A DNA stretch of 40,782 nt from assembly GCA_002084355.1 (NCBI GenBank), contig NBLL01000003.1:1-40782 (forward strand). Direction: 5' to 3'. Position numbers and translations under genes: made by a program. The DNA comes from Bacteroidetes bacterium 4572_128. Lineage in GTDB: Bacteria > Bacteroidota > Bacteroidia > Bacteroidales > 4572-128. The notes under the pieces are model-generated. The model worked only from the letters and a program-made list of their open reading frames with translations. It was not told the DNA's origin and did no database searches. This document shows positions 8,573 to 38,359 of this stretch, one piece after another. Position 1 is the first letter of the stretch. Each line of letters starts with the position of its first letter.

Positions 8573-9223
8573 TTATTTATAAAATAAAAATTTCACTGCT
8601 TGCAAATTAATATAAATTTGCTTTAAATCAACAAATTTTAAACTATCTAATATGTTTGATACAAAATATTCATAATTATTATTTTTATCTTTTTCCAGAA
8701 TAATAAATTGCCATAACCTACCAATTACAAAACTCCCTATAATTTTATTAGAATTATTCAAATTTATTGCAGCAAGCATTGCCGCAAGAACTTGATTTTC
8801 TGGATTTCCTGTTGCATTAAGAGATCTCTTATATTCTTGTAAAAAGAAAAATGGATTTTTAGGTCTTTCTATTCCTTTTGCAATTATAAAATCTGGTTTT
8901 CCTTTTAATAAAAAACCATTAATTTCACAACTTATTTCCTCGCCATACCAATCAAAAATATCTTTAAAATGAAAATCTACTTTATTTAAAATAGGACCTA
9001 TAAATTTTATAGATAATTTTTGTTCATTATAATAGGATAAATACAATCTATTTTTTTTTATTAAATTTAAAAAAAAATTTTTTTCATTTTCAGAAATTTG
9101 ATAATTATAATTAAACCATTTTTCAAATTTTTCATCATTAATAACAGGACGAATATTAACAACTTCCATTAATTTGTCAATTGTTGCATCTCTAAATTTA
9201 ATTACTTTTTCCTTGTTATTCAT
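8573..9223 (-). CDS. PD-(D/E)XK nuclease-like protein
   Basis: A 216-residue cytoplasmic protein without signal peptide or membrane segment. The middle contains GKPDFIIAKG followed by PFFFLQEYKRS, i.e. PD, about 20 residues, then E-x-K. This is the catalytic arrangement of the PD-(D/E)XK nuclease fold, as in the N-terminal domains of type I restriction subunits and in many stand-alone Bacteroidota proteins. Then come NPENQVLAAMLAA and GSFVIGRLWQFIILE, typical of these families. No helicase or methylase partner is adjacent, so the substrate is unknown. The frame is intact. It is a single-gene unit with repeats on both sides. Nuclease activity is an inference from the motif. Confidence 0.65.
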   Translation of the reverse strand: MNNKEKVIKFRDATIDKLMEVVNIRPVINDEKFEKWFNYNYQISENEKNFFLNLIKKNRLYLSYYNEQKLSIKFIGPILNKVDFHFKDIFDWYGEEISCEINGFLLKGKPDFIIAKGIERPKNPFFFLQEYKRSLNATGNPENQVLAAMLAAINLNNSNKIIGSFVIGRLWQFIILEKDKNNNYEYFVSNILDSLKFVDLKQIYINLQAVKFLFYK

Positions 9224-9240: not shown

Positions 9241-9800
9241 TTTTTATATAAAAAAAATATAATTAATTTTTTTAAAAAACATCCAATTATTTTTTATTTG
9301 AAATTAAAAAATTTTTTCAAAATTCGTCCAAAATTTTAATATTTTTTGTAACCGCTCATTATAGTATGGTAAAAAAAGTTTTTTCGCAAAAAATAAAAAC
9401 CATAAAGCTTTGATTTTAAGGTTGTTACGTTTTTTGTAAAATGCTGAGCGGATACCATTTTTTAATTTTTTAATTTCAATTAAAAAAAAAATTTTTTCAA
9501 AATTCGTCCAAAATTTTAACATTTTTTAATTTTTTAATTTCAATTAAAAAAAAAATTTTTTCAAAATTCGTCCAAAATTTTAACATTTTTAATTTTTTAA
9601 TTTCAATTAAAAAAAAAAATTTTTCAAAATTCGTCCAAAATTTTAATATTTTTTAATTTTTTAATTTCAATTAAAAAAATTTTTTCAAAATTCGTCCAAA
9701 ATTTTAACATTTTTTAATTTTTTAATTTCAATTAAAAAAAAAATTTTTTCAAAATTCGTCCAAAATTTTAACATTTAAAAAATTTTTTTCAAAAATCGTC
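9241..9800 (-). repeat. AT-rich repeat array, about 7 units of about 62 bp
   Basis: Units read AAATTCGTCCAAAATTTTAA followed by CATTTTTTAATTTTTTAATT and TCAATTAAAAAAAAAATT, in minus orientation. Unit positions are about 9317, 9498, 9560, 9622, 9681, 9747 and 9790. The 9317 unit is split by the insertion at 9348-9456. Its copies translate to runs such as KILKFWTNFEK, but no real gene is present. Confidence 0.85.
9341..9463. mobile_element. MITE-like insertion (109 bp) with 7-bp target duplication
   Basis: The element spans 9348-9456 and is flanked by ATTTTTT on both sides (9341-9347 and 9457-9463). Its ends are imperfect inverted repeats: GTAACCGCTCA (9348-9358) and TGAGCGGATAC (9445-9455), 10 of 11 matching. 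There is an inner inverted pair TATGGT / ACCATA. Removing the element and one ATTTTTT restores a repeat unit identical to the one near 9636-9680, which is direct evidence of insertion. It is too short to encode a transposase. Confidence 0.7.
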
Positions 9801-9839
9801 CAAAATTTTAATATTTTTTAATTTCAAAAAAAAAATTTT

Positions 9840-10190
9840 TATTTTTAAATCAAAATTTTACAAATTTTCATTAAAAAAATTTTTTCAAAAAAACGGCAAA
9901 ATTTTACGAATTTTCATTAAAAAAAATTTTTCAAAAAAACGGCAAAATTTTACGAATTTTCATTAAAAAAAATTTTCAAAAAAACGGCAAAATTTTACGA
10001 ATTTTCATTAAAAAAATTTTTTCAAAAAAACGGCAAAATTTTACGAATTTTTCATTAAAAAAATTTTTTCAAAAAAACGCTCAAATTTTACGAATTTTTC
10101 ATTAAAAAAATTTTTTCAAAAAAACGGCAAAATTTTAACATTTTTAAATTAAAAATTTTTTTTCAAAAAAATGGCAAAATTTTAATGAAT
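9840..10190 (-). repeat. AT-rich repeat array, about 8 units of about 46 bp
   Basis: Units of the form TCAAAAAAACGGCAAAATTT followed by TACGAATTTTCATTAAAAAA, at roughly 45-46 bp spacing (about 9887, 9932, 9976, 10021, 10067, 10112, 10160). A different subfamily from the array just before it. No gene is visible in 9224-10329. Confidence 0.85.
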
Positions 10191-26092: not shown

Positions 26093-28560
26093 TTAATGTG
26101 CTTCCATCCAGTTTCTACCTGTTCCCATTTCAACTATTAATTGAACTTTTAATTTGCAAGCTTCTTGCATTTCTTTTTTTACAATTTTTTTAACTTCATT
26201 TAATTCAGACATTTTAACATTAAAATTTAATTCATCGTGAACCTGTAAAATCATACGAGATTTTATATTTTTTTCTTTGAATTTATTCGAAATATTTATC
26301 ATCGCAATTTTTATAATATCTGCCGATGCTCCTTGTATCGGTGTATTAATTGAATTTCTTTCCGCTGTTCCCTTTAATAAACTATTGCGAGAATTAATAT
26401 CTTTTAAAAATCTTTTCCTTCCAAAAATAGTTTTTACACTTGAAATTTTTAAATTTCTCGAAAGTCCAGAAGCTGATATTCCGTAAATAATTCCAAAGTT
26501 TCCACTTTTTGCTTTATTTCTTTCTTCTTTTGTAACGTTCTCTAAATCAACATTATAAATTTTCGATGCTGTTGCTGTATGTATATCTTCACCATTTTTA
26601 AATGTTTTTATCATATTTTCATCTTCGCTCAGATGTGCCATCAAACGTAATTCTATTTGCGAATAATCTGCCGATAAAAAAATATGTATTTTGTAAATTT
26701 GGATTACTTGAACTTAAACGTCCAGTTGTAACAATTGCTTGATTAAAAGAAGTATGAATTTTTTTCGTTTTCGGATTTACCAATTTCGGAAGTGCTTCAA
26801 CGTAAGTTGATAATAATTTTTTTAATGATCTGTAATCTAAAATTTGAGGAATTATTTTATGTTTATCTTTTAACTTCGATAATTCATTTTCATTTTCAAA
26901 TAAAATAATTCCCATTTGTTTCGTGGAATTAATATTAAATTTTTCTTTTGCTGATTCATAAATATTTTTTTCTATATCTAAAATTTCTTTTTTTAATTTT
27001 TTCTCATAAATTTTAATATTTTCAAGATCCAAACTGACACCATTAAATTCCATATCCGCAAGGATATTTATTAAAGGCATTTCAATATTTTCAAAAATCT
27101 CTTTTAAATTATAAGTTTCCAATTCTTTTTCTAAAATATTTTTTAATTGAAATGTTAAATCTGCATCTTCTCCCGCATATTCTTTCAATTTTTCTATATC
27201 AACAAATAATAAATTTTTTTGCTTTTTGCCTTTTTTTCCAATTAAATTTTCTATAGGAACTGGAGAATAATTCAAATATTTTTCTGATAAAAAATTCAAA
27301 TTATGACGGCTATCGCTATCTATTAAATAATGAGCAATCATTGTATCAAAAAATTTTCCTTTGACATTAATATTATGATTTTTCAAAATCAAAATGTCAA
27401 ATTTTAAATTCTGACCAATTTTTAAAATATTTTCTGTTTCAAAAAGCTCTTTAAATTCATTTAAAATTTTTGTATATTCTTGACGATCTTTTGGTAATTC
27501 TACATAAAAAGCTTTATGTTTTTCAAAAGAAAAAGCCATACCAAGTAAATTAGAATTATAAACATCTAAACCAGTAGTTTCGGTATCAAAACAAAATTCT
27601 TTCTTTTCTTTTAATAAAGAAATTAAATTTTTCCTATCTTCAAAAGTTTTTACAAAAACGTAATTATGTTTAACATCTTTTATGCTTTTGAAATTTTTTT
27701 TATTTGAATTTTGCAATGCAGAAAAAAACAAATTCCCCTTTTCTATTGGTTTATCTAAAATTCTTCTTTCTAACTCTTTAAATTCCAACTCATTAAAAAT
27801 CTCTCTTAATTTTTCAACATTATATTTTTTTAATCGAAATTTTTCCTCATCGAAATTTACATCAATTTCTGTAATTATCGTAACGAGTTTTTTTGCAAGA
27901 AAAACATCTTTTTTTCCAATTAATAAACTTTCTTTTTGTTTTCCTTTTAATAGATGAATTTTTTTATAAATTTCTTCTAAGCTTCCAAATTTTTGAATTA
28001 ATTTTTGTGCTGTTTTTTCACCTATTCCTTTTGCTCCTTTTATATTATCCGCGGCATCTCCGCTGAGAGCAAGTATATCAATTACTTGTTCTTTTTTCTT
28101 AATTTTAAACTTTTTTAAAACTTCTGGAACACCCATAATTTCAGGGTTTTCATTATTTCTTCTCGGTTTATAAATAAAAATATTTTCACTAACAAGTTGT
28201 GAATAATCTTTATCTGGTGTCATCATAAAAACTTTATAGCCTTTTTTTTCCGCTTTTTTGGAAATTGCACCTATTAAATCATCTGCTTCAAAACCCTCTT
28301 TTGCTATTATTGGAATGTTAAAATATTCAATAATTTTTTTTATATAAGGAATTGCAAATATAATATCTTCAGGCATTTTCGGTCTTTGTGGCCGCTATAT
28401 GAGTTGGTTTTTCATTAATTATAATCTCGTTCAAAGTATTTACAAAACCTAAAATCGCAGACGTATTTTGATACTTAGAATTTATTCGTGGATTTCTTAT
28501 GAAACCATAATAAGAACGATAAATTAAAGCATAAGAATCAAGTAAAAATAATTTCTTCAT
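26093..28560 (-). pseudogene. polA: DNA polymerase I, three internal gaps (two out of frame)
   Basis: 5'-3' exonuclease (LLDSYALIYRSYYGF, AKEGFEADDLIG, TPDKDYSQLV, GDAADNIKGAKGIGEKTA), 3'-5' exonuclease (FCFDTETTGLDVYNSN) and Pol A palm/fingers (GRLSSSNPNLQN, LSADYSQIELRLMAHLSEDE, RNKAKSGNFGIIYGIS, VHDELNF). Gap 1 (about 28388-28394): after PTHIA the VVFD...TFRHE...YKA stretch (about 20 residues) is lost, resuming QRPKMPEDI in another frame. Gap 2 (about 26684-26690): after NLQN the IPIRTxxGREIRKAF block is lost, resuming in another frame. Gap 3 (about 26440): in-frame loss of about 36 residues between NLKIS and VKTIFGRKRF. The total is about 820 codons against about 930 for the family, consistent with these losses. 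Replication and repair function cannot be retained as written. Confidence 0.88.
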
Positions 28561-32198: not shown

Positions 32199-32766
32199 AT
32201 GGGATTTTTTTTAAAAAAGCAAATATCAAAAACTTGTCAAATTGGAATTTGGCAAATAAAAGAGGATTATAAAACACTTTTTTCTTCTTTAAATTTAAAT
32301 GAAGAAGATAAAAGTACCTTAGAAAATTTCAAAAATGAAAAAAGAAAAATAGAATGGTTATCTGTTCGTTTTCTTTTGAAGAAATTAATTGGAAAAGAAA
32401 TGCAAATTCTTTACAAAAAAAGCGGACAACCATTTATCAAAAATTCATCTATTTCAATTAGTATTACGCATAGAAAAAATCGGAAGAATTGCTTTACGTT
32501 TTCTAAGTCAAAAAGAATTAAAAGATATAGATTTTAATCAAAGAATTAAACATTTATATTTGCATTGGTGTGCAAAAGAAACTTTATTTAAAGTTTATGA
32601 AGATAGAGCTTTAGAATTTAAAGAAAATTTAAAAATTCTTAATTTTAAAGTCAATGAAGAAGGAACTTTCGAAGGAATTATTGATAAGAATAATATCAAA
32701 GAAAAATATATCTTAAATTATTTTGTAAAGAACAACTTTGTTGTTGTTTGGACTTTTGTTGATTAA
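32199..32766 (+). pseudogene. 4'-phosphopantetheinyl transferase, frame broken
   Basis: Transfers phosphopantetheine from CoA to carrier proteins (acyl carrier or secondary metabolism). The first frame has RKIEWLSVRFLLKKLIGKEM, YKKSGQPFIKN and SISITH. From about 32470 the second frame has KIGRIALRFLSQKELKDI, HLYLHWCAKETLFKVY and a C-terminal domain to 32766. The residues that should link SITH to the ALRFL helix (about 20, including the Mg-binding GIDIE motif) are missing. The WCAKE motif is intact. The lesion is an out-of-frame deletion; the product could not bind Mg-CoA as written. Confidence 0.82.
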
Positions 32767-36823: not shown

Positions 36824-37606
36824 ATGAAATTAAATAATATATATAATGAAAATTGTCTTGACACTATGAAATTATTTAAAAATAATTTTGTAGATATGAT
36901 TTTAACTTCACCTCCTTATGATGATTTAAGAAATTATAATGGTTATGATTTTCAATTTGAAAAAATAGTAAAAGAATTATATAGAATATTAAAAATTGGT
37001 GGTGTAATTATCTGGGTTGTTGGTGATAAAACAGATAATGGAAGTGAAACTTTAACATCTTTTAAACAAGCATTGTTTTTTAAAAAAATTGGATTTAATG
37101 TTCATGACACTATGATTTATTACAAAAACAATCCTATGCCAACAGCAGGAAAACGTTATCATCAGCATTTTGAATATATTTTTGCCTTTTCAAAAGGCAA
37201 ACCATCAGTTTTTAATCCAATAACAGAATCAACAAAATATCGTGGCATTGCAAATATGAAAAATCGTGGTAAAACTGGAAACATAGATTATAAAAAAATT
37301 GAGCGAACAAAAGAAAAAAAAGTTGGAAATGTTTTTTTTTATTCTGTTGGTGGAGGAATTTCTACAAAAGATAAAATCGCATATAAACATCCAGCAATTT
37401 TTCCCGAGCAGCTTGCAATAGACCAAATTAAAACTTGGACAAATGAAAACGATTTAATATATGACCCTTTTATTGGTAGTGGAACTACGGCAAAAATTGC
37501 GCAAATTTTCAATAGAAAATGGATTGGTTCTGAAATTTCTAAAGAATACACGAAAATAGCAAATGAAAGATTAAAAAAATATTTTAAAAAAAATTTATTT
37601 TTATAA
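36824..37606 (+). CDS. beta-class amino (probably N4-cytosine) DNA methyltransferase
   Basis: 260 residues. The catalytic motif comes first as TSPPYDDLRNY (SPPY, 29-32) and the AdoMet motif last as DPFIGSGTT (about 214-222): the order of beta-class amino-methyltransferases. The SPPY form is typical of N4-cytosine enzymes. The middle region (KNNPMPTAGKRYHQHFEYIF) is typical of small type II modification enzymes. Its stop is 6 bp before a HinP1I-like endonuclease, so it should protect the same site. If that is GCGC, which has no adenine, cytosine must be the target, in agreement with SPPY. Intact. Confidence 0.88.
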   Translation: MKLNNIYNENCLDTMKLFKNNFVDMILTSPPYDDLRNYNGYDFQFEKIVKELYRILKIGGVIIWVVGDKTDNGSETLTSFKQALFFKKIGFNVHDTMIYYKNNPMPTAGKRYHQHFEYIFAFSKGKPSVFNPITESTKYRGIANMKNRGKTGNIDYKKIERTKEKKVGNVFFYSVGGGISTKDKIAYKHPAIFPEQLAIDQIKTWTNENDLIYDPFIGSGTTAKIAQIFNRKWIGSEISKEYTKIANERLKKYFKKNLFL

Positions 37607-37612
37607 GAAATA

Positions 37613-38359
37613 ATGGATTTAATAAAAAAAGGTTCGCATACAGCGAAAGAAGGCTTCAAAAATGAAAGAGATATTGTTAAGAAATTTAATAATTGGAAGA
37701 AAGATAAGGAAGCACAGGACTGGCTAATAATAATGGATTATGAATTATCTGAAATTGAATATGTTGAAGCAATTATTATATCAGCTTATAAAACAGATGT
37801 TCAAGTTCAAATAAAAATAAAATTAAAAAAAGCAATTGATGTAGAAAACTTGCAAATAAAGCTTGTGAGCAATTTAAAAGGTTTTAATCAAATAGATAAA
37901 CGTTGGGTGGATAAATATCAAGAAATGTGGAACATTCCATTTGATATAACTGAAATATTAAAAAAATATACCGGAGAAATTGCTCCAACAATAAAAAATC
38001 CAAAAGATAGCAGACGAATGTTTATCAATGAATTTAGCGAAAAAACTCAAAAAAAATTATTAAACTGGTTTGAAAATAATAAATTTTTAATTATAAATGA
38101 TATAATTAAAGGAAGAGGAAAATTTGCTTCTGAATGGATGCTTGTTGTTCAAAAAATTGAAACAAATTCAAGATGGATTTTAAAAACAATAAATATTGTT
38201 ATAAATCATTTTTCAAACGGAAATGTAATTGTAACAAAAAGAGGTAATATTAAAATTGGAAAAATAACAATGCAGCGCAAAGGTGGAGATGCCGGACGAA
38301 AAACATCACAAATGTTACAATTTAAAATTAATCCTGCGGAATTATTTGATATTGGGTAA
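37613..38359 (+). CDS. HinP1I-like type II restriction endonuclease
   Basis: 248 residues, nearly the same length as R.HinP1I (247). From memory of that enzyme the resemblance runs end to end: GSHTAKEGFKNERDI, EAQDWLIIMDYELSEI, LVSNLKGFNQIDKRW, YQEMWNI, RRMFINEFS, GRGKFASEWMLVVQK, QRKGGDAGRKTSQMLQFKI and ELFDI. The HinP1I active-site residues fall at identical numbers: D62, Q81 and K83 (here KTD...QIK). HinP1I cuts G^CGC, so the same specificity is likely. Second gene of an R-M operon. Intact. Confidence 0.9.
   Translation: MDLIKKGSHTAKEGFKNERDIVKKFNNWKKDKEAQDWLIIMDYELSEIEYVEAIIISAYKTDVQVQIKIKLKKAIDVENLQIKLVSNLKGFNQIDKRWVDKYQEMWNIPFDITEILKKYTGEIAPTIKNPKDSRRMFINEFSEKTQKKLLNWFENNKFLIINDIIKGRGKFASEWMLVVQKIETNSRWILKTINIVINHFSNGNVIVTKRGNIKIGKITMQRKGGDAGRKTSQMLQFKINPAELFDIG

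Follow-up and report, generated by a model that had tools for sequence, protein, structure and literature searches.

A short insert interrupts an AT-rich tandem array upstream of dnaK in Bacteroidetes bacterium 4572_128, raising the question of what it is, how it came there and whether it still moves. From the analysis of the surrounding 40,782 nucleotides of contig NBLL01000003.1 (the window), we consider it about 90% probable that the insert is a MITE copy in decay, which owed its mobility to an IS66-family DDE transposase acting in trans and producing target site duplications (TSDs) of 8 bp. Comparisons were made with the window's own genome assembly (G000; 2.6 Mb, 151 contigs, 73% complete) and with a sister species of the same genus (G001).

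The insert and its family

Direct reading and a script agree that the insert (Table 1) starts with GTAACCGCTCA, ends with TGAGCGGATAC and measures 108 bp; an earlier sequence-only reading of this DNA had correctly noticed its presence but gave its length as 109 bp. The two flanks are identical at 7 of 8 positions, with one mismatch; the ATTTTTT which that reading saw on both sides is indeed seven identical bases, but the full duplication is 8 bp. The claim that removal of the insert with one flank restores an array unit is borne out exactly, as the left flank joined to the DNA past the right flank yields 50 bases that are found verbatim at 9630-9679. Relative to the full element, a deletion of about 27 bp has joined TGC to TGAGCGGATAC in the window copy; the junction was mapped against full copies on contigs C64 (9340-9498) and C71 (7510-7637) and in the sister species (G001:C166:2896-3030). 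Since only 11 bp of the right TIR are left, the window copy is probably immobile.

Table 1. The insert, its parts and its target in the window
Feature	Position	Strand	Sequence or size	Remark
MITE copy	9348-9455	+	108 bp	comparison with other copies
Left target site duplication	9340-9347		TATTTTTT, 8 bp	C to T at first base
Right target site duplication	9456-9463		CATTTTTT, 8 bp	
Left TIR, intact	9348-9373	+	GTAACCGCTCATTATAGTATGGTAAA, 26 bp	consensus of many copies; 25/26 match to right TIR
Deletion junction, TGC joined to TGAGCGGATAC	9442-9455	+		right TIR cut to outer 11 bp
AT-rich tandem array	9456-9776	+	64-bp unit, 5.1 copies	insertion target

A search of the genome for further copies of what had been proposed as a MITE-like element found many. 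With a 123-bp query, 58 matches are obtained in G000, and over a dozen other copies match at E = 1e-38 to 1e-48; the 18-base TIR core has 33 exact occurrences and two more with two mismatches, and the reversed control has none. Agreement on this scale is well outside what chance would give. The perfect ends in G000 number 34, made up of 19 left (GTAACCGC..) and 15 right (GTATCCGC..) ends. Nine copies are internal to contigs; 13 left and 9 right ends run into a contig end after about 100 bp of the element, which is what identical repeats should produce in an assembly. This corresponds to at least 22 insertions in G000, most of them at contig breaks, and the family accounts for much of the fragmentation of this assembly.

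The full element is 135 bp long with 26-bp TIRs that are identical at 25 of 26 positions, and the sister copy at G001:C166:2896-3030 is 100% identical to the reconstructed 135-bp consensus (E = 1.6e-65). The element carries no transposase gene and codes for nothing. The internal inverted pair noticed earlier proves to be part of a larger structure, the full-length consensus being a fold-back over almost its whole length. The copies fall into two subfamilies, distinguished solely by the linked sites 47 (C/T) and 80 (G/A), at which the window copy has T and A and is otherwise substitution-free; outside these sites substitutions are nearly absent among copies, an identity that is partly conditioned by assembly in that contig-end copies share k-mers. 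We considered whether sites 47 and 80 form a compensatory hairpin pair and rejected this, as the predicted RNA fold joins site 47 to 89, and a pair of 47 with 80 has P <= 0.02. Taken by itself, the internal core has only a slight folding advantage over shuffles (z -1.15; z -2.16 with the inner part of the TIRs), and an Rfam search gave one sub-threshold chance match only.

The copies that are assembled through (the window copy and those on C12, C106, C129, C35, C52 and C85) mostly have indels or a lost arm, although arm-deleted copies may be over-represented here through assembly bias. It is conceivable, and in our view rather doubtful, that the near-perfect fold-back of what would be a new IS66-type MITE family causes copies to die by one-arm deletion, so that the hairpin would limit their lifetime.

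The likely mobiliser

The sequences of the sister species point to an IS66-type element as the likely mobiliser. Nine left and 11 right contig ends of G001 carry the TIR GTATCC[A/G]CTCAATTTAGTATGG with two distinct interiors; these are the two ends of one IS, present in about 10 copies, the middle of which is missing from the bin. Its TIR differs from that of the MITE at two positions in the shared core (AATTTAG vs ATTATAG), and the two elements have in common the sub-terminal stretch GGTAAAAA..GTTTTTT and the 8-bp length of the TSD. On contig C292 of the sister the IS end leads into a frame-broken ORF, whose open part (165 aa) matches Nostoc plasmid transposases (43%, E = 5e-12); these score as IS66 with both Pfam (E=9e-11) and NCBIfam (E=2e-32), the latter below the equivalog cut-off of the model, which makes them divergent members. 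The Nostoc transposases link the C292 fragment by homology to PF03050 proteins, in their N-terminal part; on its own the fragment matched no Pfam or NCBIfam transposase model. The IS ends on C292 and C177 share the TSD CTTTAAAC, and their joined flanks form an open frame. The gene interrupted there (locus L129, about 767-2360 of C292 with the C177 end) adjoins a methyltransferase-like ORF and is, by eye, possibly a restriction endonuclease.

The Nostoc IS66 elements (single-TnpC type; NZ_CP054697, NZ_CP040273, NZ_CP091914) have ends such as GTATCCGCTCAATAA..GGGGTAG and the perfect 8-bp TSDs AGGAATAG, CATCATCG and GTTTATTT. They are like the present family in their TIR start (GTATC[CG]GCTCA-like) and TSD length, and the N-terminus of their transposase is homologous to that of the sister's IS; the window element differs from them in being 108-135 bp and non-coding, and in a TIR that continues ..TTATAGTATGG and not ..AATAA..GGGGTAG. 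IS66 elements are described as having 8-bp repeats and 20-30-bp TIRs that start with GTAAGCG (PMC11946415). The 26-bp TIR here begins GTAACCG or GTATCCG; it shares GTAA and CG with GTAAGCG, from which it is one base off, and its start is closer to the Nostoc ends than to GTAAGCG.

The search of G000 for an IS66 transposase was negative, although one may exist, given an assembly that is 73% complete and has its contigs broken at repeats. No intact relative of the C292 transposase fragment was found in 295 genomes of the order, nor, beyond the sister itself, in the GTDB contig collection. As to the transposase with matching ends that the sequence-only reading had looked to, related IS ends are present in the sister, and no intact IS66 transposase was found in either assembly. 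Because two positions of the TIR core differ, the direct partner of the MITE may be a sister IS that is missing from the assembly.

These gaps leave some room for a mobiliser outside IS66, in which case the likeness to the sister's IS ends would be convergent or ancient: a transposase flanked by exactly ATTATAG-type TIRs was not encountered, and the Pfam search for IS66 was empty in both G000 and G001 (no PF03050 match). We regard this alternative as improbable in view of the nearly shared TIR, the common sub-terminal stretch, the equal TSD length, and the IS66 homology that runs through Nostoc elements with like ends.

With an IS66-type mobiliser, the parent of the MITE would be an IS with the TIR GTAWCCGCTCATTATAGTATGG and a TnpC gene, and the MITE itself, which is 135 bp long, gene-less and of fold-back structure, with TIRs of 26 bp, would be moved in trans by a single-ORF, TnpC-like IS66 transposase. 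Its spread in G000 was recent, for the most part into AT-rich intergenic arrays and occasionally into genes. The window copy entered an array unit upstream of dnaK, with CATTTTTT as its target; it then lost about 27 bp from the right arm, by which it was probably immobilised, and its left TSD acquired a C to T change.

Target duplications, empty sites and recency

Exact 8-bp duplications flank the in-contig copies that have both outer ends, on C106 (ATTTTTTA), C64 (TAAAAAAT) and C71 (CATTTTTA), as well as the copy on C12 (AAAATTTT) and the sister copy on G001:C166 (ATAATTTT). When all left and right ends are paired, 14 pairs agree for a duplication length of exactly 8 bp, none for 9 bp and one for 10 bp, where shifted controls for 8-bp matching give 0 at most offsets (range 0-6 in AT-rich flanks). 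A lone match between homopolymer-like 8-mers is a weak argument for a TSD, whereas TAATCTTA is strong evidence. The latter is shared by the element ends at the start of C99 and the end of C22; when their flanks are joined, a 391-aa AAA_15 ATPase frame reads through without a break. The sister has only distant homologues of this gene (~30% identity), and hence no empty site for it. A one-ended remnant in C52 introduces a stop codon into a TPR-repeat gene.

For the window insertion, G001:C152 matches the left flank at 98% identity along 775 bp that end precisely at the insertion point, beyond which it continues through AACATTTTTTAAATTC without the element. The empty target reads CATTTTTT, the same as the right TSD, so the C to T change in the left TSD came later. 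The evidence from this empty site is one-sided, the right side of the G001 locus differing through array turnover and a paralogous gene. A reciprocal, two-sided empty site exists for the G001:C166 insertion: in G000:C73 its flanks (93-96% identity) adjoin each other without the element. The insertions are lineage-specific, and the TSDs, the empty sites and the restored AAA_15 frame together show that the MITE reading holds and that transposition was recent. The element had earlier been called active; recent transposition is supported by the lineage-specific and nearly substitution-free copies, but present-day activity is not what the data show, and the window copy, with its shortened right end, is probably dead.

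An assembly artefact, in which a repeat fragment and the array were joined as a chimera, is suggested by the fact that the element breaks most contigs and that the window copy is without part of one end; it is very unlikely, since both ends are present, the 8-bp TSD is matched at 7 of 8 positions and the right TSD is the target found in the sister species. Least credible is a dispersed structural repeat (a REP- or terminator-like palindrome) spread by recombination or a REP-type enzyme and not by cut-and-paste transposition, which would suit the nearly perfect fold-back, the mostly intergenic positions and the other AT-rich palindromic repeats around, but is contradicted by the defined ends, the exact 8-bp TSDs, the sister empty sites and the ORF-interrupting insertion.

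The insert thus belongs to a real, recently mobile MITE, new as a family and known as a kind, and in that sense fairly ordinary mobile DNA; it documents a MITE family in an uncultured Bacteroidales genus and ties it to IS66-type ends. MITECca01 of Cardinium is derived from the IS982 family, is ~240 bp long and is present in 169 copies (PMC9769881). It is likewise an IS-derived MITE in Bacteroidota with many near-identical, mostly intergenic copies and a parent inferred from common ends, and differs in its length and its IS982-family parent. MITEPsy1 of Pseudomonas syringae has a 4-bp TSD and an IS5-type relation, and its transposition was shown experimentally (PMC3189936); as a ~100-bp bacterial MITE with short TIRs and insertions in genes, it too resembles the window family. 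We met no IS66-derived MITE in the open-access literature searched, the partial coverage of which makes this weak evidence of novelty. The plasmid records and viral contigs searched held no copy of the MITE.

Older relatives and neighbouring genes

Diverged, old relatives of the MITE are seen at G000:C132:5450-5582 (133 bp, 81% identical) and at loci L123 and L124, with a TIR of ..CTCAATTTTTATGG; the family is therefore older than its recent burst. Weak matches at C55, C118, C44 and the start of C85, and in other families of the order, were set aside as AT-rich chance or TIR-only matches. In a genome of another family of the order (locus L080, G048:C267, about 1530-1557), an end GTATCCGCTCAAAAAAGTGTGGTATAC resembles the MITE TIRs, with no transposase nearby.

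Two AT-rich tandem arrays, with units of 64 and 47 bp and cores CGTCCAAAATTTTAA or AAACGGCAAAATTTTACG, occupy 9456-10184 of the window upstream of dnaK, and related units match at well over a hundred places in the sister genome. At 8573-9223 (-) lies a 216-aa ORF with no significant Pfam match, nuclease-like by eye (PDFIIA..LQEYKR); it has a 98% orthologue in the sister and many 71-77% paralogues beside AT-rich arrays, which by sequence comparison makes it a member of a multi-copy gene family.

Elsewhere in the window, DNA polymerase I (26093-28376, -) is read in two overlapping frames with parts of PF00476 in both, which suggests a frameshift, real or from sequencing. A 4'-phosphopantetheinyl transferase at 32199-32766 (+) also appears split into two overlapping frames. 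At 36824-38359 (+), a DNA methylase (PF01555) and, directly after it, an R.HinP1I-type restriction endonuclease (PF11463, E=5e-88) are predicted from these domain matches to form a restriction-modification pair.
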